Below, piece by piece: positions 52,688 to 63,751 of a stretch of 64,000 nt of DNA. This DNA is from Chromatiales bacterium (GTDB taxonomy: Bacteria > Pseudomonadota > Gammaproteobacteria > Thiohalomonadales > Thiohalomonadaceae), in the NCBI GenBank assembly GCA_003251535.1, contig QKFD01000024.1, forward strand, positions 33,837 to 97,836. Reading direction: 5' to 3'. Numbering within the stretch: position 1 is the first letter of the stretch; each line of letters opens with the position of its first letter. A program made the translations under genes and the position numbers. The notes below the pieces were generated by a model. It saw only the letters and a list, made by a program, of their open reading frames with translations, made no database searches and had not been told where the DNA came from.

Positions 52688-54052
52688 TTACCGCGAGGCC
52701 TGGACGATAGAGAGGCCACGCAGGAGGTTATAGGCCTCATAGAGGCCAAAATCCTCAGAGGCGGTGGGCGGACCAGAGCGCTTGGTAATGTCCTCTGAGG
52801 CTGCATTCACCGAGCCACCCTCTTTACCCTTATCCCCCTTCTTGCTGTCCGGTTTCTGCTGCGTCTCGTTGCCGTTGGTGAGATGGCGAGAGAGATCCCG
52901 CTCCTTCACCACCAGGCCGTCATTCTCCTCCACCTCGTCCACCTTCACCTGCCTGAGGACGATATCCGGCTTGATCCCTTCCGCCTGGATGGAGCGACCA
53001 CTCGGGGTGTAGTAACGGGCGGTGGTGAGTTTGACACCGGTGTTATTGCTCATCGGGAAGATGGTCTGCACCGACCCCTTACCGAAGGTCTGCGCCCCCA
53101 TGATGACGGCGCGGTGGTGGTCCTGGAGGGCACCGGCGACGATCTCAGAGGCGGAGGCGGAACCGGCATTGACCAGCACCACGATGGGGGCGCCATCCAG
53201 GATGTCATCCGGGGTAGCAGAGAAGCGCAGCTCAGAGTCGGCGGCGCGCCCCTCGGTGTAGACCACCAGCCCCTTCTCTAGGAAGGCGTCAGCCACTCCG
53301 ACCGCTGCCCCCAACACCCCACCAGGGTTGTTACGCAGATCGAGCACCATCCCCTTCAGTTGGCCGTTGGCCGCCTGCTTCAGGTCATCCACCGCCTCCC
53401 GGACCTGCTCACTGGTCTGGGTCTGGAAGCTGGTGATGCGGACGTAGCCGAAGCCATCGCCCAGGTCACGGCTCTTGACGCTCTTCACATGGATGATGTC
53501 ACGGGTCACGGTGACCTTCACCGGCGCCTCTACCCCTTCCCGGACGATGGTGAGGTTGATGTCGGTACCTGGGGTCCCGCGCATGATCTTCACCGCATCG
53601 TTGAGGGTCATCCCCTTCACCGGGGTGTCATCCAGACGGATGATCAAATCACCGGCCTGCACCCCAGCCCGGGCGGCGGGGGTGTCATCGATGGGGGCGA
53701 TGACCTTGACGAAACCATCCTCCATGCCGACCTCGATACCGAGCCCACCGAACTCGCCGGTGGTGCCCATCTGTAGCTCTTTATAGGCCTCCTGATCGAG
53801 GAAGTTGGAGTGGGGGTCGAGCCCGGCAAGCATCCCGGAAATGGCGTGGGAGAGGAGAGTCTTATCGTCCACCTCTTCCACGTAGTCGGCCTTGATCTTG
53901 CCGAATACCTCGGCAAATGTACGCAGCTCCTCCATCGGTAGAGTCGATGCGGGGGCGCCTTTGTCGGCAAACACGGAGGTCCCGACGGAGAGGGATACCC
54001 CCGTGGCAACACCGATGGCCAGTACCAAAGCCGTGCGTGTAGTTTTAAACAT
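52688..54052 (-). CDS. ctpA: C-terminal processing protease CtpA/Prc family (S41)
   Basis: A 454-residue periplasmic serine protease. A signal peptide (to about 30), a helical domain, a PDZ domain (GLGIEVGMEDGFVKVIAPIDDTPA to about 190), and a catalytic S41 core with Ser in NAGSASASEIVAGAL and Lys in QTFGKGSVQ. The C-terminal tail is Lys/Gly/Asp-rich (KPDSKKGDKGKEGG). It cleaves C-terminal tails of periplasmic proteins, including murein hydrolases. It is seven bases upstream of yibQ and downstream of envC, an operon seen in many relatives. Confidence 0.95.
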   Translation of the reverse strand: MFKTTRTALVLAIGVATGVSLSVGTSVFADKGAPASTLPMEELRTFAEVFGKIKADYVEEVDDKTLLSHAISGMLAGLDPHSNFLDQEAYKELQMGTTGEFGGLGIEVGMEDGFVKVIAPIDDTPAARAGVQAGDLIIRLDDTPVKGMTLNDAVKIMRGTPGTDINLTIVREGVEAPVKVTVTRDIIHVKSVKSRDLGDGFGYVRITSFQTQTSEQVREAVDDLKQAANGQLKGMVLDLRNNPGGVLGAAVGVADAFLEKGLVVYTEGRAADSELRFSATPDDILDGAPIVVLVNAGSASASEIVAGALQDHHRAVIMGAQTFGKGSVQTIFPMSNNTGVKLTTARYYTPSGRSIQAEGIKPDIVLRQVKVDEVEENDGLVVKERDLSRHLTNGNETQQKPDSKKGDKGKEGGSVNAASEDITKRSGPPTASEDFGLYEAYNLLRGLSIVQASR

Positions 54053-54150: not shown

Positions 54151-55341
54151 CTATCGCTTTACTGTTTTGCACCAACGCGCCGGATCAGAGGGGCGGCCCT
54201 GCTCGCGGATCTCGAAGTAGAGCCCATCCTCCTCCTGCCCGCCGCTGTTACCCACGGTGGCAATCACATCACCGGTATCGACCCAATCCCCGACGGCGCG
54301 TAGCAGCGTCTCGTTGTGACCATAGAGGCTCATAAAGCCATCCCCATGGTCGAGGATCAGGATGAGGCCATAGCCACGCAGCCAGTCAGCATAGGCCACC
54401 CGACCGGGGGCCACCGCATGGACTCGGCTGCCAGCCACCCCCTCCAGCAACACCCCCTGCCACGCCATCCCGCCCGCAGCGCGCTCGGTACCAAACGCTA
54501 TCCGCACCCCACCGGTGATCGGCCAGGGGAGTTTGCCGCGCCGCTCAGCAAAGGGTTGGCCCGCTTCGGGAGGGATATCTTTCAGCACTGCCGACAACTC
54601 TTTGATCAGTCGCTCCAGCTCTTTCTCATGCTGCTGCAACGACTTCAGTTGGCGTCCCTTATCTCCCAGCTCGCTCTTCAGCTCGGCCACCAGCTGCTGC
54701 CGCGTCTTCCGATCCGTCTCCAGCTCCACCTGCCGCGCCGCCTCCTCACTCCGCAGCGCCGCCAGCTGCTCCGACTCGCCATCCACCGCCCGTCGCGCCT
54801 CGGTCAACTGCTGCTCCAGGGTGATGAGGGCGTCGATGCGCCGACTACGTTCGCGGTGGAGATAGTCGTAGTAGGTGAGTACCCTGCCAAAACGACTTGG
54901 TTCCTCCTGATTGAGCAGGAGTTTTAGCCGCTCCTGCCGCCCCATGGCGTAGGCGGCCCGGATCTGGGCGGCTAGGTGGCTGCGCTGGGTATCCACCGCC
55001 GCCTCCAACCGATCACGTTCCGTGGTGAACTGCTCTAGTTTCTCCTGCTGTTGGGCAATACGCCCATCCAGCTCCTCGATGTGCTGCCGGGTCTGGCCGA
55101 TGCGGGTCTCCACCTCGGCCAGCTGGTTGCGCTCGCTCTGATAGGTGCGCCGCACTCGGTTAAGCTCGCCCCGCAGCGCCTCAATGCGCTCCCGAACCTG
55201 GCCTAGCTCCGCCTCTTTGGTGGCGCGATCATCCGCCAGCAGCGGCGCCGCGGCCAACAGGAGCGCCAACAGCGCCGCCGGCCGCCGCCGGCACCTAGGC
55301 CGGCTGGACTTCCTCAACGAGGTGTACCAGTGGCTGGCCAA
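54151..55341 (-). CDS. envC: Murein hydrolase activator EnvC
   Basis: A 396-residue protein. A signal-like hydrophobic stretch (about residues 22-36) follows a basic n-region, then a long coiled coil (about 40-260), then a degenerate LytM/M23 domain (LPWPITGGVRIAFG, DHGDGFMSLYGHNE, DTGDVIATVGNSGG), the layout of EnvC, which activates amidases at the septum. No ATG is available; TTG at 55341 (weak AGAGA upstream) or TTG 55317 are the candidates, and either overlaps the end of gpmI. It is operonic with gpmI and ctpA. Confidence 0.88.
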   Translation of the reverse strand: MASHWYTSLRKSSRPRCRRRPAALLALLLAAAPLLADDRATKEAELGQVRERIEALRGELNRVRRTYQSERNQLAEVETRIGQTRQHIEELDGRIAQQQEKLEQFTTERDRLEAAVDTQRSHLAAQIRAAYAMGRQERLKLLLNQEEPSRFGRVLTYYDYLHRERSRRIDALITLEQQLTEARRAVDGESEQLAALRSEEAARQVELETDRKTRQQLVAELKSELGDKGRQLKSLQQHEKELERLIKELSAVLKDIPPEAGQPFAERRGKLPWPITGGVRIAFGTERAAGGMAWQGVLLEGVAGSRVHAVAPGRVAYADWLRGYGLILILDHGDGFMSLYGHNETLLRAVGDWVDTGDVIATVGNSGGQEEDGLYFEIREQGRPSDPARWCKTVKR

Positions 55342-56866
55342 TCATCTCTGTTGGCTTATCGATCCCCGCTAGATAGAGCAGCGTGGGCGCCACATCAATC
55401 AGGGTACCGTTATTCAAGGCCGGCTCTGCCGGGCGACCAACGTAGATGAAGGGCACCAGATTGGTGGTATGGGCCGTGTGGGCCTGGCCGGTATCGCGCC
55501 CCCGCATCAGCTCGGCGTTACCATGATCGGCAGTAATGAGCATCTCCCCACCCACCCGCTGCATCGCCGCCCACACCCGACCCAGGCACTCATCGAGGAA
55601 TTCGATGGCCTCCACGGTGGCCTCGAAGTTACCGGTGTGGCCCACCATATCGGGGTTGGCGAAGTTACAGATGATGAAATCGAAGGTCCCCGACTCGATG
55701 GCGGCCACCAACTTATCGGTCACCTCACCGGCGCTCATGCGCGGCTGCTCGTCGTAGGTGGTGACCTTGGGCGAGGGGACCAAGATCCGCTCCTCCCACT
55801 CAAACGGGGTCTCGACGCCACCGTTGAAGAAGAAGGTGACGTGGGCGTACTTCTCGGTCTCAGCGATGCGTAGCTGGTGCATCCCAAGCCGCGAGACATA
55901 CTCGCCAAAGATATTGCGCAGCCGCTCCGGCGGGAAGGCGACTGGGATATCGAAGTCCCCGCTGTACTCGGTGAGGCTGACATAGCTGGCCAGCTGGGGC
56001 ACCACCTGGCGAGAAAAGCCGCTGAACTGCGGGTCAATAAAGGCGCGGGTCAGCTCGCGGGCACGGTCCGAGCGGTAGTTCATAAACACCACCACATCGC
56101 CATCCACGATGCGCACCGCCTCTTCCCCCTGGGGCACGATGAGGGTCGGCTTGACGAACTCATCGGTCTCGCCCCGCTCATAGGCCTGGAGCAGGGCGGT
56201 GGCGGTATCCGGGGCCGTAAACTCGGCACTACCGCTGGTGAGCATCTGATAGGCCGCCTCTACCCGTGGCCAGCGGTTATCCCTATCCATGGCGTAAAAG
56301 CGCCCGCAGATGGAGGCGACACGGCCCCGCCCCAGGGAGCGGAACTTCTCATCCATCAGCCGCAGCGATTCGCCGGCACTTTTGGGTGGGGTATCTCGAC
56401 CATCCAGGAAGCCGTGGACATAGACCCGCGGGACCCCGCGGTTGACCGCCAGCTCGGCCATGGCATGGATATGCTCTTCATGGCTGTGGACCCCACCCGG
56501 CGAGAGCAGGCCGAAGATATGCAGGGCACTGCCGTTCTTCACCGCCAGATCCGCCGCATCGGTCAGGGTCTGGTTGCTGAAGAACGAGCCGGTCTTGATG
56601 GAGCGGGAGATGCGGGTGAACTCCTGGTAGATCACCCTTCCGGCCCCCAGATGGAGGTGGCCTACCTCAGAGTTACCCATCTGCCCGGTGGGCAGACCCA
56701 CCTCGGCGCCAGAGGCGCGCAGCAGGGTATGGGGATAGTTGGCCCAGAGCTTGTCCCACGAGGGGGTCTTCGCCTGAGCGATGGAGTTGTACTCGGTCTC
56801 CTCAGAGTATCCCCAGCCATCGAGGACAATGAGGGCGATCGGTCGGGGGCGGTGGCTTGCGGACAT
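55295..56866 (-). CDS. gpmI: 2,3-bisphosphoglycerate-independent phosphoglycerate mutase
   Basis: A 523-residue cytoplasmic enzyme. LIVLDGWG, the catalytic Ser in GQMGNSEVGHLHLGAGR, HGFLDGRDTPP, AMDRDNRW and TADHGNAE carry the Mn-binding and catalytic residues of GpmI, which interconverts 3- and 2-phosphoglycerate. Length is standard. Gene order gpmI-envC-ctpA-yibQ is common in gammaproteobacteria. A 17-base palindrome lies 30 bases upstream of the ATG. Confidence 0.97.
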   Translation of the reverse strand: MSASHRPRPIALIVLDGWGYSEETEYNSIAQAKTPSWDKLWANYPHTLLRASGAEVGLPTGQMGNSEVGHLHLGAGRVIYQEFTRISRSIKTGSFFSNQTLTDAADLAVKNGSALHIFGLLSPGGVHSHEEHIHAMAELAVNRGVPRVYVHGFLDGRDTPPKSAGESLRLMDEKFRSLGRGRVASICGRFYAMDRDNRWPRVEAAYQMLTSGSAEFTAPDTATALLQAYERGETDEFVKPTLIVPQGEEAVRIVDGDVVVFMNYRSDRARELTRAFIDPQFSGFSRQVVPQLASYVSLTEYSGDFDIPVAFPPERLRNIFGEYVSRLGMHQLRIAETEKYAHVTFFFNGGVETPFEWEERILVPSPKVTTYDEQPRMSAGEVTDKLVAAIESGTFDFIICNFANPDMVGHTGNFEATVEAIEFLDECLGRVWAAMQRVGGEMLITADHGNAELMRGRDTGQAHTAHTTNLVPFIYVGRPAEPALNNGTLIDVAPTLLYLAGIDKPTEMIGQPLVHLVEEVQPA

Positions 56867-56896: not shown

Positions 56897-57012
56897 GTTA
56901 GACCAAGTCTAACGGGAATCGCTCCAACTGAACATTAACCGGCAATCAAAGCGTTTCACCGTATAACCGTATTCGAATAGAGCCCTTCTCAAAAGAGGCG
57001 ATATTGTATATC
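56897..57012. promoter_or_regulatory. Divergent control region with three palindromes
   Basis: GTTAGAC-CAA-GTCTAAC (56897-56913) is a perfect 7-3-7 inverted repeat near gpmI. TATTCGAATA (56970-56979) and GATAT-TGT-ATATC (57000-57012) lie nearer the ArsR gene. The region is AT-rich and serves the divergent gpmI and arsR promoters. The likely ligand is the ArsR protein encoded at 57079, but this is not shown. Confidence 0.55.
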
Positions 57013-57078: not shown

Positions 57079-57414
57079 ATGAGTCAGGACCTGGACATGA
57101 CCGATGACGAGGAAGTGAACCTCATCACCCGGGACGATGACATCGAGCGCGCTTCCCGTTCGCTCAAGGCGATGTCTCACCCATTACGCCTCAAAATTCT
57201 CTGCACCCTGGGCAACCAGGAGGTCAGCGTGCAGGATATCGTCGAGCGGGTGGGGACCTCCCAAAGCAATATCTCGCAGCATCTGGCCATCCTCCGCGAC
57301 AAAGGGATCCTGAGCGCCCGTAAGGATGCCAATCGGGTCTACTATCGGGTGGAGGATCAACGTACCCTACGGCTCATCAGCATGATGCGGGACGTCTTCT
57401 GTTCCATGGGTTAG
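57079..57414 (+). CDS. ArsR-family regulator, BigR/SqrR-like persulfide sensor
   Basis: A 111-residue winged-helix repressor. SRSLKAMSHPLRLKILCTLGN, SVQDIVERVGTSQSNISQHLAILRDKGIL and VYYRVED form the fold. Cysteines are only at 42 and 108, the two positions that form the disulfide or polysulfide link in BigR (C42/C108) and correspond to C41/C107 of SqrR, so release of DNA by sulfane sulfur is likely. It lacks the arsenic CxC pattern. It is followed by DUF2892 and rhodanese genes, typical partners. The promoter region has several palindromes. Confidence 0.82.
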   Translation: MSQDLDMTDDEEVNLITRDDDIERASRSLKAMSHPLRLKILCTLGNQEVSVQDIVERVGTSQSNISQHLAILRDKGILSARKDANRVYYRVEDQRTLRLISMMRDVFCSMG

Positions 57415-57459
57415 AGTTCCCCATCGCGCCCCAACTGAATCCATCTCTGAGGAGAGCCT

Positions 57460-57681
57460 ATGACCGTCGAACGCATTGTGCGCATCGTCGCCGGCACCTT
57501 CATCCTGCTATCCCTTGGCCTCGGGGTTGAAGGAAGCCCGATCTTCCATCACCAGAACTGGCTCTGGTTTACCGCCTTTGTCGGTTTTAACTTGCTCCAA
57601 AGCGGCTTTACCCAGTTCTGCCCGTTGGACCTCATCCTGAAGAAGGCCGGGGTCCCCTCCAGCAGCGCCGCCAAGACCTGA
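57460..57681 (+). CDS. DUF2892 membrane protein (YgaP-like transmembrane domain)
   Basis: A 73-residue protein with two hydrophobic helices (about 10-24 and 32-48) and the conserved FNLLQSGFTQFCPLDLILKKAG. This matches DUF2892, the membrane part found fused to or beside rhodanese in YgaP. It may anchor rhodanese or move sulfur. It is 45 bases after the ArsR gene and likely co-transcribed. Confidence 0.88.
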   Translation: MTVERIVRIVAGTFILLSLGLGVEGSPIFHHQNWLWFTAFVGFNLLQSGFTQFCPLDLILKKAGVPSSSAAKT

Positions 57682-57751
57682 TTGATACGCCGCCTGCCCG
57701 CTCCCGGCGGGCGGGCGTAGCCTACCCCTCCGTTTTTGAGCCCATCCCCCA

Positions 57752-58195
57752 ATGCAGCAGTTTTTCGAGTTTTTCATCAAACACTGGGATCTCTTCCTGC
57801 TCCTAGCGGTTATCGTCGGGATGCTGATCTGGCAGAGCTTCGCCGCGCGGCTGCGGGGCTACCAAGAGAGCGACCCCCAGCTAGCGGTCCAGCTCATCAA
57901 CCATCAAGAGGCGATGGTGCTGGACGTGCGCGAGGATGGCGAGTACCGCGAGGGACACATCATAGACTCGCTCCACATCCCGCTTGGCCAACTCAATGGC
58001 AAGTTGGAAAGCCTCGCCCCCTACAAAAGCAAACCGGTTATAGTAGGCTGCCGTAGTGGAGCACGATCGGCCCACGCCTGCGGCATGTTGCGTAAGCAGG
58101 GGTTTGAGCAGGTCTATAATCTGCGCGGCGGGGTGATGGCTTGGCAGAATGCCGGCCTTCCCCTGGAGAAGGACGGAAAGCGCAAGAAAAAATAA
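57752..58195 (+). CDS. Membrane-anchored rhodanese-like sulfurtransferase
   Basis: A 147-residue protein with an N-terminal transmembrane helix (about 14-30), then a rhodanese domain: MVLDVREDGEYREGHI and the active-site loop CRSGARS with C100. It would take sulfane sulfur as a persulfide. Lys-rich tail KDGKRKKK. It is 70 bases after DUF2892 and 20 bases before grxC, in the block leading to secB and gpsA. Confidence 0.92.
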   Translation: MQQFFEFFIKHWDLFLLLAVIVGMLIWQSFAARLRGYQESDPQLAVQLINHQEAMVLDVREDGEYREGHIIDSLHIPLGQLNGKLESLAPYKSKPVIVGCRSGARSAHACGMLRKQGFEQVYNLRGGVMAWQNAGLPLEKDGKRKKK

Positions 58196-58215: not shown

Positions 58216-58473
58216 ATGCCGAACGTCGTCATCTATTCCACTGGCACCTGTCCCTACTGTGTCCGCGCCCGGGGGTTGCTGGACAAGAAGGGGGTGACCT
58301 ATACCGAGCACCGGATCGACCTTGAGCCGGACCTGCGCCCCACTATGGAGCAGCTGAGCGGCCGCACCTCGGTACCCCAGATCTTCATCGACGATTTCCA
58401 CGTTGGCGGCTTCGACGACCTCTCTGAGTTGGATATGGAGGGCCGTCTCGACCAACTCCTCGGCCTCGCCTGA
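58216..58473 (+). CDS. grxC: Glutaredoxin 3
   Basis: An 85-residue protein with the dithiol site CPYC (12-15), SVPQIFID with the cis-proline, and GGFDDLSEL, all glutaredoxin 3 features. It reduces protein disulfides with glutathione. GGGGGGAG lies ahead of ATG 58216; the frame from 58141 is inside the rhodanese gene. Order rhodanese-grxC-(trxC)-secB-gpsA is the usual gammaproteobacterial arrangement. Confidence 0.96.
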   Translation: MPNVVIYSTGTCPYCVRARGLLDKKGVTYTEHRIDLEPDLRPTMEQLSGRTSVPQIFIDDFHVGGFDDLSELDMEGRLDQLLGLA

Positions 58474-58481
58474 GCCCGCCC

Positions 58482-58913
58482 ATGGCCGCGCTCCACATCG
58501 TTTGCCCCCACTGCAATGCGGTCAACCGGGTCCCGGAAGAGAAGCTGGAACAGGGGGGGCGCTGCGGTAAGTGTCATGCGCCGCTGTTCGTAGGCAAGCC
58601 GGTCACCCTCACCCCAGCCAACTTTGCACCCCATGCCGAGCGGAGCGACCTACCGCTGCTGGTCGATTTCTGGGCACCTTGGTGCGGCCCCTGCAAAATG
58701 ATGGCGCCGGTGTTCGAACGGGCAGCGGCGGAGCTGGAGCCCAAGGTGCGGCTCGGCAAGGTCAACACCGAAGAGGAGCAGGCGTTGGCCGCCCGCTTCG
58801 GCATCCGCTCTATCCCCACCCTGATGCTGTTCCGGCAGGGGCGGGAGGTCGCCCAGATGGCGGGGGCAATGGACCTACGTAATCTGCTCATCTGGGTGCG
58901 CCAACACCTCTGA
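58482..58913 (+). CDS. trxC: Thioredoxin 2 (TrxC) with zinc-binding N-terminus
   Basis: A 143-residue protein. An N-terminal zinc site C8-x2-C11 and C28-x2-C31 is followed by a thioredoxin domain with WCGPC (C68, C71), then SIPTLMLFRQG with the cis-proline. TrxC is an OxyR-type stress thioredoxin. It is inserted between grxC and secB, with an 8-base gap from grxC, so it is part of the same operon. Confidence 0.96.
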   Translation: MAALHIVCPHCNAVNRVPEEKLEQGGRCGKCHAPLFVGKPVTLTPANFAPHAERSDLPLLVDFWAPWCGPCKMMAPVFERAAAELEPKVRLGKVNTEEEQALAARFGIRSIPTLMLFRQGREVAQMAGAMDLRNLLIWVRQHL

Positions 58914-58952: not shown

Positions 58953-59429
58953 ATGTCGGAAAACCAGACCGCTCAGCCGGCCGAAGCCGGTGCTGCGCAG
59001 CCGCAGTTTGCCATCCAGCGCATCTACATCAAGGATGTCTCCTACGAGACCCCCAACTCCCCCGCCATCTTCATGGAGAAGTGGGAGCCGGCGGTCAATG
59101 TTGAACTGGGGACCAGCAGCAGCAAGTTGGGCGAAGGGATCTATGAGGTCGTCCTCTCCCTCACGGTCACCGCCAAAAAAGAGGATAAAACCATCTATTT
59201 GGTGGAGGTCAAGCAGGCAGGGATCTTCACCATCTCCGGGTTCAACGAGCGGGATCTCAACGGGATGCTGGGGGCCTACTGCCCCAACGTGCTCTTCCCC
59301 TATGCCAGAGAGGTGATCTCCGATCTGGTGGCCCGCGGCACCTTCCCTCAGCTGGTATTGGCGCCCGTCAACTTCGACGCCCTCTACGCCCAGCACATCA
59401 AGAATCAGACCAAACCCGAGACCCACTAA
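58953..59429 (+). CDS. secB: Protein-export chaperone SecB
   Basis: A 158-residue protein. [41 protein letters not shown] and [25 protein letters not shown] are diagnostic of SecB, which keeps preproteins unfolded for SecA. Standard length. It lies between trxC and gpsA (11-base gap). Confidence 0.98.
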
Positions 59430-59440
59430 AGGGCTGTCCC

Positions 59441-60442
59441 ATGACCGGTGCGGTAACCGTCATCGGCGCCGGTTCGTGGGGCACCGCCCTCGCCATCCTG
59501 CTCGCCCGCAACGGCATCCCGACCCTCCTCTGGGGGCGGGATGAGGCGGCGATGGCGCAGATGGCGCTCACCCGAGAGAACCGGCGTTATCTGCCTGGGG
59601 CCCAGTTCCCCGCCAATCTCACCCCTACGGCGGACCTGCCCAGCGCCCTCTGCCAGACCACAGAGCTACTGCTCTCGGTCCCTAGCCACGCCTTTCGCCA
59701 TACCCTGGCGGCAACCCGCCCCTACCTCAGCCCTGCCGTGCCGGTGGCCTGGGCCACCAAGGGCTTGGAACCGGATAGCCTCAAACTACTCCATGAGGTG
59801 GCGGCCGAACTCCTCAGCCCCCAGTGGCCGGTAGCAGTGATCTCCGGCCCCACCTTTGCCAAAGAGGTGGCCCAGGGGCTGCCCACAGCCGTCACAGTGG
59901 CCTCCCCAGAGATGGCAGTGGCCGAACGGGTGGCAGCGCGTCTCCATGGCGGCACCTTCCGCGCCTACACCAGCACCGACATCATTGGTGTCGAGCTGGG
60001 GGGGGCCATCAAGAATGTCCTCGCCATTGCCGCCGGGATCGCGGATGGCCTTGGCTTTGGTGCCAATACCCGGGCGGCCCTCATCACCCGCGGCCTAGCG
60101 GAGTTGATGCGTCTAGGGCAGGCCTGTGGGGGCCGTGCAGAGACCTTTATGGGCCTCGCAGGTCTCGGTGATCTCATCCTCACCTGCACCGATGACCAGT
60201 CACGCAATCGCCGCGCTGGCCTGGCCCTAGGGCACGGCAAGGGGGTAGAGCAGGCACTGGCCAGTATCGACCAGGTGGTGGAGGGGATTGGCACGGCCCA
60301 GACGGTACATCGTCTGGCCCAACGTGAGGGGGTGGAGATGCCTATCGCCGAGCAGGTCTATCGCGTCATCTACCACCACCTCTCCCCCTCTGAAGCGGTG
60401 CAGACCCTCTTCGCCCGCGAGCAGAAGCCAGAGATAGGCTGA
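59441..60442 (+). CDS. gpsA: Glycerol-3-phosphate dehydrogenase [NAD(P)+]
   Basis: A 333-residue enzyme. VIGAGSWGTALA is the nucleotide-binding loop, WATKGLE and SGPTFAKEVAQG the substrate side, and ELGGAIKNVLAIAAGI the catalytic lysine region. It makes sn-glycerol-3-phosphate for phospholipids. It is the last gene of the block, with convergent YkgJ gene and hairpins downstream. Confidence 0.98.
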   Translation: MTGAVTVIGAGSWGTALAILLARNGIPTLLWGRDEAAMAQMALTRENRRYLPGAQFPANLTPTADLPSALCQTTELLLSVPSHAFRHTLAATRPYLSPAVPVAWATKGLEPDSLKLLHEVAAELLSPQWPVAVISGPTFAKEVAQGLPTAVTVASPEMAVAERVAARLHGGTFRAYTSTDIIGVELGGAIKNVLAIAAGIADGLGFGANTRAALITRGLAELMRLGQACGGRAETFMGLAGLGDLILTCTDDQSRNRRAGLALGHGKGVEQALASIDQVVEGIGTAQTVHRLAQREGVEMPIAEQVYRVIYHHLSPSEAVQTLFAREQKPEIG

Positions 60443-61738: not shown

Positions 61739-63751
61739 TTAGTGGGCAGCGGCCTTGAACAGCTTGCTCTTGTCAACCAGGTCCTTGTGGGCGCGCTTGA
61801 ACACGGTCCACTTCTTGCTGGTCTTGTCGTAGATGGAGTTAACGAAGCACTTCCAGTTCTCCTCATCCACGAAGTTCTTATCCATCCGGTAGTAGAAGCC
61901 GGGGTAACGGCTCTCCTCACGGAACTGGATGTGCTTCATGTGGGCCTCGGCGGTGAGGATGCGGTGGTAGTTCTCCCAAGCACGGAGCAGCTCGTGGAGG
62001 TCCTTGGCGCGCATCTTCTCGGCGTCTTCCTTCAGCATCTCCAGCTTCTCTTCAGCCACCTTGAGCATGTGCTCGTTGGTGGTGTAGTAGGTGGCGACGC
62101 CAGCGACGTACTCGTCCATGATCTTCTGGAGGCGGAACTGCAGCATCTTCGGCGTGATGTAGTTCGGGTTCACGTCGATAGCGGTGCTGTAGTTCTTGTG
62201 CTCCATGAAGTTCTTCACCGGCTTGTAGATCTCGGCCACGAGATCATCAACGCTGGAATCGAGCTCCGGGGTCCAGTCCTTGTTATCAAGGACGAACTGC
62301 ACCATGGACTTGGCAGCCATACGGCCTTCGGCATGGGAGCCGGAGGAGAACTTATGGCCAGAGGCGCCCACGCCGTCACCGGCAGTGAACAGACCCTTGA
62401 CGGTGGTCATGGAGCGGTAGCCCCAGTTCCAGCCCTTCGGCAGGTGGTCAGGCACGCCAGCAGCGGTCTCGTCGGTGGGGGCACCGACATCTTCCGGACC
62501 GGAGACCCAGATGCCGCAGCAGCCGGAGTGGGAACCGAGCAGGTACGGCTCGGTGGGCATCAGCTCGGAGTTCTTCTTCTCCGGCTCGATGTTCTCACCG
62601 ACCCAGATACCGCACTGGCCGACGCACATGTCGAGGAAGTCTTCCCAGGCCTCAGCCTCAAGGTGCTTCACCTCACGCGGGGAGAGGGTCTCCTTCAGCT
62701 TGGCAAGGGCGGTCACGGTGTCCATATAGATGGGACCGCGGCCTTCCTTCATCTCCTTCAGCATCAGGTGGTTACGCAAGCAAGAGGCGGGAACGGCAGC
62801 CTGGCCATACGGCGGGTAGTCGTTCAGCATCTCCTTGTTCTTGACCATGTACACTTCGCCGAAGGCGTTAGTGGCCTGGGATTTGAACAGCAGGAACCAG
62901 GCGCCAACCGGGCCGTAACCGTCCTTGAAGCGGGCGGGTACGAAGCGGTTTTCCATCATGGTCAGCTCAGCGCCAGCCTCGGCGGCCATGGAGTAGGTGG
63001 AACCAGCGTTCCACACCGGGTACCAAGCGCGGCCGGTGCCCTCACCCACGGAGCGGGGACGGAAGATGTTGACGCAGCCGCCAGCGGCGAGCAGGCAGGC
63101 CTTGAACTTGTAGACCATCACCTTGTGGTCACGCACGGAGAAGCCCACGGCGCCAGCAACGCGACCCGGGTCGTTCTTGTCGTTAACCAGCTTGACGATG
63201 AATATGCGCTCTTCGATACGCTCGGAGCCCAGTGCCTTCTTAGCGGCCTCAGCGACGATCCACTTGTAGGACTCGCCGTTGATCATGATCTGCCACTTAC
63301 CAGAGCGGACCGGCTTGCCGCCGTCCTTCAGGGCGGGCATCCCCTTGGAACCGTCGTGACGCTCACCGTTCTCGTCGGTCTTCCAGATGGGCAGACCCCA
63401 CTCCTCGAACAGGTGCACAGACTCGTCAACGTGGCGGCCCAGGTCGTAGGCCAGGTCATCACGGGTGATACCCATCAGGTCGTTGGAGACCATACGGGCG
63501 TAATCGGCGGGATCCTGCTCGGAGCCGATGTAGGTGTTGATAGCGGAGAGGCCCTGCGCCACAGCGCCGGAGCGGTCCATGGCGGCCTTGTCGACCAGCT
63601 TGATCTTGAGGTCTACACCTGCTTCGGCCTTAGCAGCCTCGGCCCAGCGCACCAGCTCGTAAGCGGCGCCGCAGCAAGCCATACCGCCACCGATGAGGAG
63701 GATGTCTACCTCTTCCTGGACGACTTCCGGATTACCAAATTCACCAGCCAT
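61739..63751 (-). CDS. aprA: Adenylylsulfate reductase alpha subunit
   Basis: A 670-residue flavoprotein. DILLIGGGMACCGAAYEL is the FAD-binding loop. The sequence continues with AMDRSGAVAQGLSAINTYIG, VCGQC-like GQCGIWVGE and GLFTAGDGVGASGHKFSSG, all AprA hallmarks. AprA with AprB converts sulfite plus AMP to APS in sulfur oxidation (the reverse of sulfate reduction). GAGGAA precedes the ATG. It is 50 bases after aprB and closed by a terminator; no aprM follows. Confidence 0.97.
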   Translation of the reverse strand: MAGEFGNPEVVQEEVDILLIGGGMACCGAAYELVRWAEAAKAEAGVDLKIKLVDKAAMDRSGAVAQGLSAINTYIGSEQDPADYARMVSNDLMGITRDDLAYDLGRHVDESVHLFEEWGLPIWKTDENGERHDGSKGMPALKDGGKPVRSGKWQIMINGESYKWIVAEAAKKALGSERIEERIFIVKLVNDKNDPGRVAGAVGFSVRDHKVMVYKFKACLLAAGGCVNIFRPRSVGEGTGRAWYPVWNAGSTYSMAAEAGAELTMMENRFVPARFKDGYGPVGAWFLLFKSQATNAFGEVYMVKNKEMLNDYPPYGQAAVPASCLRNHLMLKEMKEGRGPIYMDTVTALAKLKETLSPREVKHLEAEAWEDFLDMCVGQCGIWVGENIEPEKKNSELMPTEPYLLGSHSGCCGIWVSGPEDVGAPTDETAAGVPDHLPKGWNWGYRSMTTVKGLFTAGDGVGASGHKFSSGSHAEGRMAAKSMVQFVLDNKDWTPELDSSVDDLVAEIYKPVKNFMEHKNYSTAIDVNPNYITPKMLQFRLQKIMDEYVAGVATYYTTNEHMLKVAEEKLEMLKEDAEKMRAKDLHELLRAWENYHRILTAEAHMKHIQFREESRYPGFYYRMDKNFVDEENWKCFVNSIYDKTSKKWTVFKRAHKDLVDKSKLFKAAAH

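Follow-up and report, generated by a model that had tools for sequence, protein, structure and literature searches.

A putative persulfide-sensing ArsR repressor ahead of the rhodanese-secB-gpsA cluster of Gammaproteobacteria

Introduction

Persulfide sensing by repressors of the ArsR family is known in a handful of bacteria, and the target genes differ in each of them. BigR, SqrR, HlyU and YgaV make up a reactive-sulfur-sensing subgroup (SSN cluster 4) that is told by a winged-helix fold, a pair of cysteines in helices alpha2 and alpha5, the absence of a CXC metal motif in alpha3, a rhodanese or sulfurtransferase gene in the neighbourhood and, with persulfide, a polysulfide bridge and release from DNA. 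According to two published accounts, those regulators with the pair that have been characterised respond to reactive sulfur species by linking their cysteines through such a bridge, and the known members adjoin genes for sulfurtransferases or rhodaneses (PMC10509353; PMC12423496).

Here we consider an ArsR protein of a Chromatiales bacterium, encoded on contig QKFD01000024.1 within a stretch of 64,000 nucleotides that is called the window below. A strongly conserved member of the family sits there, at a housekeeping locus that is fixed in many families of the Gammaproteobacteria.

The locus and its relatives

The arsR gene (57079..57414, plus strand) codes for a winged-helix regulator of 111 residues, with an alternative start at 57097. 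It is followed on the same strand by a gene for a DUF2892 or YgaP-like_TM membrane protein (57460..57681; PF11127), then by that of a YibN-like rhodanese with a hydrophobic N-terminus (57752..58195; PF00581; with 31% identity to YibN of E. coli across 142 residues), grxC, coding for glutaredoxin 3 (58216..58473; above the cut-off of TIGR02181), trxC, of the thioredoxin 2 type (58482..58913; above that of NF008229), secB (58953..59429; PF02556) and gpsA (59441..60442; PF07479 and PF01210). The successive gaps along this series are 45, 70, 20, 8, 39 and 11 bp. On the minus strand, divergent from arsR, lies the phosphoglycerate mutase gene gpmI (55295..56866; PF06415 and PF01676), and beyond it two flanking genes conserved in synteny, for an EnvC-like M23 peptidase (54151..55341, minus strand; PF01551) and a CtpA-like S41 peptidase (52688..54052, minus strand; PF03572). 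An earlier note, made from the letters of the sequence, had named DUF2892, rhodanese, grxC and trxC genes behind arsR and gpmI facing it; the domain profiles recover each of them at its place. Another minus-strand gene, at 61739-63751, encodes 670 residues with an FAD_binding_2 domain. It presumably resembles the alpha subunit of APS reductase, an enzyme that would suit a sulfur oxidiser.

Among 274 genomes of the class, the ArsR protein finds matches at E <= 1e-10 in 177, and 138 hold what we count as an orthologue, at a cut-off of our own choosing (E <= 1e-28). Over the 80 best loci on genome contigs, identity is 76-91%; cultivable relatives are among them, such as Thiohalophilus thiocyanatoxydans, Thiocystis violacea, Allochromatium warmingii and Sedimenticola hydrogenitrophicus. 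In 109 of the 111 locus rows fetched, a rhodanese gene follows downstream (the window is counted twice among these rows, and some loci recur because they came from both named and unnamed collections). Gene content could be counted in 84 loci, another 26 being too short: the rhodanese is present in 84/84, secB and gpsA in 83/84, grxC in 37/84 (tblastn may overlook such short genes), trxC in 25/84 and DUF2892 in 10/84. Rhodanese, secB and gpsA are thus the constant core behind arsR, while DUF2892, grxC and trxC are optional. The arrangement with arsR ahead of the rhodanese recurs in many gammaproteobacteria from many families of the class, Competibacteraceae included; to our knowledge, the latter are not classed as sulfur oxidisers. 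A literature search for the arsR-rhodanese-secB-gpsA locus returned no description of it.

What we see, then, is the ordinary gpmI / yibN-grxC-secB-gpsA arrangement of E. coli with arsR placed in front. This bears on the proposal that DUF2892, rhodanese, grxC and trxC make up the parts of a sulfane-sulfur response. The rhodanese behind a dithiol ArsR fits that proposal well; the idea of a set built for the purpose does not hold, the cluster being a standard one in which DUF2892, grxC and trxC come and go. Because E. coli has the cluster without the ArsR, grxC and trxC are compatible with a purpose-built sulfur response and yet no evidence for it.

The DUF2892 proteins of these loci deserve a remark of their own. 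A cysteine in an FCP motif (C54 in the window protein) is conserved in 21 of 24 rows, the window being counted twice, where E. coli YgaP has FCG. It is possibly a residue that carries sulfur.

A dithiol ArsR protein with cysteines in the sensor columns

The translated protein of 111 residues contains two cysteines in all, C42 and C108, as had been read before. By sequence, its closest solved structures are those of BigR, HlyU, YgaV and SqrR, and in the alignment its two cysteines share columns with those of BigR (3pqj), HlyU (3jth and 5znx), YgaV (3cuo) and SqrR (13ct). The equation of C42/C108 with the sensor pair of BigR and SqrR, which the earlier note had drawn, is hence upheld. Its companion argument, that the residue numbers agree with those of SqrR at an offset of one, stands only as far as the aligned columns go: in the database copy translation begins with the ATG at 57097 and gives 105 residues, so that the pair would become C36/C102. 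Numbers that move with the choice of a start codon were discarded as evidence in themselves, and the informative features of the pair are the aligned columns and the spacing of 66 residues.

Both cysteines are kept in 111 of the 111 close locus rows. They are also present in 20/20 rows of an alignment that reaches down to 46% identity and includes paralogues, where 25 columns are invariant; conservation of the pair exceeds chance. A profile search of the source genome gave four ArsR matches, the window protein and three others (L001, L002 and L004). Of these, L001 and L002 were aligned; both have CVC motifs and no cysteine in either sensor column. Paralogues with some 50-52% identity and the same cysteine pair were met directly behind a response regulator gene in four loci (L219, L221, L222 and L224), the regulator comprising receiver and PAS domains according to Pfam in L219 and L221. 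These paralogues might be the persulfide branch of a two-component system.

An AlphaFold model of the protein (mean pLDDT 80.6, from 20 sequences) places C42 inside the helix 35-44 and C108 just past the helix 94-107, and its residues 17-111 superpose on residues 17-111 of BigR (3pqk_A). In a structural comparison the model comes nearest to HlyU and SqrR, narrowly followed by YgaV and BigR. Since the scores of metal sensors, CzrA for one, are similar to those of HlyU and SqrR, the fold by itself decides nothing about the type of sensor. Four marks of the reactive-sulfur-sensing subgroup are found together here: the ArsR winged-helix fold, the pair in alpha2 and alpha5 (C42 and C108), an alpha3 that contains neither cysteine and no CXC metal motif, and a rhodanese as the near-constant neighbour.

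Because the pair aligns with those of BigR, SqrR, HlyU and YgaV and is kept down to 46% identity, the protein is probably a dithiol repressor of the persulfide type; it would form a member of its own, distinct from BigR, within a class of sensors already known. That it might be BigR itself was considered and rejected: it reaches 79.5 bits against the NCBI model for BigR, NF040642, for which the cut-off is 155, and the DUF442-ETHE1 (Blh) and TauE genes are absent from the cluster. The only NCBIfam model that it passes is the generic 'metalloregulator ArsR/SmtB'. A tree with YgaV, BigR and SqrR had long branches, with anchors and bootstrap values that did not settle. On the whole we infer, with good support, that this ArsR is a sensor.

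The arsR side of the promoter region

The 212 bp between the divergent genes gpmI and arsR contain two conserved elements, M1 and M2, which emerged when 102 upstream regions (110 less 8 that were short or near-duplicates) were searched for dyads that recur among them. M2, next to arsR, looks like a promoter or operator (57000..57012, plus strand). Its copy in the window is GATATTGTATATC and the family consensus ATTATTGTATAAT; read on the arsR strand as TATTATTGTATAATGTTT, the consensus includes TATAAT. In most relatives, M2 carries a -10 box, whereas the copy of the window is without the consensus TATAAT hexamer. Upstream of M2, a CTTCTCAAA block (56985..56993, plus strand) was noticed by eye in many of the relatives printed out. 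A scan of the region for consensus sigma-70 promoters gave 0 matches, and the sole terminator-like match of the scan coincides with M1, where chance alone predicts 1.2 such matches.

Within one mismatch, the 9-base core of M2 occurs in 69 of the 102 regions (7.8 in shuffled sequences), namely in 62 of the 74 where the locus has a gpmI match and in 7 of the 28 where it has none. The exact 14-mer ATTATTGTATAATG, to which the window copy is not identical, is present in 28 of the 274 genomes, one copy in each, and by coordinates 25 of these 28 copies lie immediately before arsR. In the source genome the core TATTGTATA is found once, at 57002-57010, and a reversed control pattern twice. The symmetry of M2 was set aside as proof of an operator: among 48 sites with the exact core, the outer pairs show 16 one-sided changes that break the dyad, and the window copy is the sole one that keeps it through changes in both partners, two double changes in all. 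M2 also differs from the ATTC-N8-GAAT motif deduced for SqrR and YgaV.

BigR is described as recognising a -10 region (PMC5823870), and YgaV as protecting DNA around the transcription start of ygaVP and close to its sigma sites (PMC9774250). Given these two precedents, M2 is the best candidate, and likely the site, for binding of the window ArsR, though it may be merely a strong and conserved promoter.

The gpmI side and an Irr/PerR-like Fur protein

M1, the inverted repeat TTAGACnnnGTCTAA / TTAGACCAAGTCTAA upstream of gpmI (56898..56912), is a candidate box for a Fur protein of the Irr/PerR kind. Within two mismatches it occurs in 37 of the 74 regions with gpmI (1.0 in shuffled sequences) and in 0/28 without. 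In the source genome, a single site lies within one mismatch, before gpmI, against nine for the reversed control. Across the genomes that have M1, however, the control pattern is about as frequent as M1, and for this reason we rejected the number of M1 sites as evidence; only their places are informative.

These places were read in 30 loci with an exact M1, fetched from the 63 genomes that have it. At 21 of the sites the neighbour is a rubrerythrin gene, and 3 sites belong to gpmI/arsR loci; the other six are divided between a peroxidase gene (1, before it), the start of a FUR-family gene (2) and loci to which no target was assigned (3: L189, L193 and L209). An earlier look at 20 chosen places in relatives had shown rubrerythrin, a glutaredoxin/peroxiredoxin pair, trxB or gpmI at 9, the remaining 11 having mostly no clear target. 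The rubrerythrin-linked M1 is found also in genomes without the ArsR orthologue. With a single mismatch, as TTAGACCCATTCTAA, the element turns up between or near genes for APS reductase beta and a molybdopterin oxidoreductase in two loci (L141:1601 and L158:1532). What emerges looks like a regulon of rubrerythrin, a peroxidase, the peroxiredoxin/glutaredoxin pair, a trxB-like gene, a Fur-family gene and gpmI.

A Fur-like gene is present in 51 of the 63 genomes with M1 and in 59 of the 211 others (P 5e-14, an optimistic value, as are all those for M1, because the genomes are related and not independent). In these 274 genomes M1 accompanies the Fur homologue both with and without ArsR: of the 22 M1 genomes that have no ArsR orthologue, 15 have the Fur-like gene. 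The association of M1 with ArsR itself (41/63 vs 97/211, P 0.01, on the same related genomes) is gone once Fur-positive and Fur-negative genomes are taken apart (P 0.39 and 0.55). The Fur homologue of the source genome (L227; 57% identity) is encoded on the same contig as the window, at C85:15163-15552. It scores highest against the equivalogs IrrA (128.6 bits, cut-off 150), Irr (122, cut-off 170) and PerRA (91.4, cut-off 200), yet stays under all three cut-offs, and its best PDB match is 5nl9, a FUR-family regulator. No M1 was found within 3 mismatches near this gene, and a search for rubrerythrin in the source genome gave no strong score (best E 5e-7).

The alphaproteobacterial Irr box (TTTAGAANNNTTCTAAA) resembles M1 and offers a lead. 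The element, in the window at 56898-56912 and in the relatives (L187-L216, L139-L158), looks like a box of this Fur type in Gammaproteobacteria. It probably belongs to a regulator other than ArsR, for which the Irr/PerR-like Fur is the candidate. The suggestion that the targets of ArsR may include gpmI, the divergent gene, was dismissed insofar as it would rest on M1, because the link of M1 to ArsR vanishes within the Fur strata and M1 mostly accompanies rubrerythrin. Since M1 beside gpmI tracks the Fur-like protein and not ArsR, gpmI is probably no target of ArsR and answers instead to an iron- or peroxide-type regulator.

The active-site loop of the rhodanese

The rhodanese of the window has a canonical loop, CRSGARS, with C100, where E. 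coli YibN has VDGSGMQC. The secB-linked rhodaneses were therefore read in genomes with and without ArsR. In the near ArsR set (110 loci, the loop being unreadable in 5), the loop cysteine is kept in 105/105 and the CX4R pattern in 73/105; among the remaining 32, 21 carry Q there. A further 62 stretches came mainly from genomes with a divergent ArsR, of which 16 were unreadable in the loop; for genomes without ArsR at E <= 1e-28, 136 in number, we read 60 among the matches listed. CX4R is found in 41 of the 46 readable divergent loci and, among the matches listed, in 8 of the 60 without ArsR; the loop cysteine in 44/46 and 46/60, respectively. Two ArsR-linked loci have lost the cysteine (L311 and L320). 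Seven genomes in which arsR and secB are on different contigs were fetched as well; the three that could be read (L341, L343 and L350) all have canonical secB-linked loops.

YibN rhodaneses linked to secB in genomes without this ArsR (L231:4585-5016; L233-L292) are often degenerate: 14 of the 60 among the matches listed are without the cysteine, and 52 without CX4R.

Kinship was corrected for by independent contrasts on a tree of SecB and GpsA, with 8 supported. On average 4.2 of the 8 speak for a link between loop and ArsR and about 0 against (median P 0.125), and three further definitions of the loop trait made post hoc go in the same direction, with no significance on independent pairs. The state of the loop hints at a fate shared by the sensor ArsR and the catalysis of the rhodanese; resting as it does on related genomes and few independent contrasts, the association is only suggestive.

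What the repressor might sense and control

We hold it rather probable that ArsR (57079-57414) is a putative autorepressor which senses persulfide through C42/C108 and then releases the promoter of arsR-DUF2892-rhodanese-grxC-trxC-secB-gpsA. The reduced dimer would cover M2 in the manner in which BigR covers a -10 region. Sulfane sulfur would bridge C42 and C108 and lift the dimer off the DNA, and the rhodanese, glutaredoxin and thioredoxin might then move or reduce that sulfur. On the other side, gpmI would answer to the Irr/PerR-like Fur protein through M1, in which case the intergenic region carries two independent redox inputs. It counts against the persulfide reading that secB and gpsA have no obvious role in sulfur metabolism.

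The cysteine pair could also switch on another signal – an oxidant that forms a disulfide, haem or electrophiles – persulfide not being its physiological ligand. Published work gives this idea some substance: disulfides, sulfenic acid and adducts with glutathione are likewise known at the cysteines of BigR (PMC5823870), YgaV binds haem (PMC9774250), and the operon of the window holds the general thiol reductants grxC and trxC. These two genes are optional, however, whereas the rhodanese is the constant neighbour (109/111 rows), and HlyU, which has the same pair, is reported to react with persulfides but to be unreactive towards H2O2 (PMC10509353); we find such a different signal unlikely. Were it the core of the operon that mattered (rhodanese, secB and gpsA, in 83-84 of 84 loci), the ArsR might be mainly a regulator of the envelope and of protein export, acting on yibN-secB-gpsA, with the rhodanese taking part in membrane-protein insertion and the cysteines being structural or a minor redox input. 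Indeed, E. coli YibN is reported as an interaction partner of YidC, and deletion of yibN as widening the cells (PMC12282094). Yet the operon of E. coli exists without the ArsR, and a role confined to the envelope would have no need of the loop cysteine that is kept in ArsR genomes (105/105 near, 44/46 readable divergent). This explanation appears improbable to us.

Much the same is to be said of repression on both sides, with ArsR binding between the genes and controlling gpmI together with its own operon. The two genes are divergent over a shared 212 bp, and M2 is far commoner where gpmI lies upstream (62/74 vs 7/28), which is what this arrangement would lead us to expect. Against it, the element on the gpmI side, M1, goes with the Fur-like gene rather than with ArsR, is absent (0/28) where gpmI is missing, and lies by rubrerythrin in 21 of the 30 fetched loci, genomes without the ArsR orthologue included, so that we give dual repression little credence. 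Control of the ArsR operon by persulfide, with gpmI left to another regulator, is the reading that we retain.

What it would mean

A broader picture may be drawn from here, tentatively, for we consider that the chances lean against it as a whole. In it, an ArsR that senses persulfide would be joined to a catalytic rhodanese of the YibN type in one module, at the head of the secB-gpsA operon across much of Gammaproteobacteria. Sensor and loop would have been lost together in E. coli-type lineages, leaving YibN with an envelope role, and the 212-bp promoter would be a redox hub with two inputs, ArsR conveying persulfide to the operon and the Irr-like Fur conveying iron or peroxide to gpmI. If this were true, control of the rhodanese/SecB/GpsA cluster by sulfane sulfur would be common in the class and YibN of E. 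coli a remnant, which gives a testable reason why this rhodanese has no proper loop. With M1 and M2 told apart, a box and a regulon (rubrerythrin, gpmI, a peroxidase and a Fur gene) can moreover be proposed for an Irr-like regulator.

Comparison with known systems

SqrR of Rhodobacter capsulatus shares the cysteine pair and the fold with the window ArsR, at 38% identity over 87 aligned columns; its additional cysteine, C9 in the titles of PDB entries, has no counterpart here, nor is there a sulfide:quinone reductase among the genes behind arsR. BigR of Xylella and Agrobacterium has the pair in the same columns and the same fold, with 29% identity over 96 aligned columns, while the window protein fails its model NF040642 and the DUF442-ETHE1 (Blh) and TauE genes of its operon are found nowhere in the window cluster. 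A similar organisation is that of ygaVP in E. coli, where YgaV (40% identity over 87 residues), with the same pair as C31/C98, comes directly before a rhodanese and DUF2892. In YgaP, at that other locus, rhodanese and DUF2892 form one chain; downstream of the window arsR this fusion is not found, the two being separate genes, in the reverse order, ahead of grxC-trxC-secB-gpsA. For the cluster itself the counterpart is in E. coli K-12, where yibN-grxC-secB-gpsA stand in the same order beside a divergent gpmM, but with no ArsR in front.
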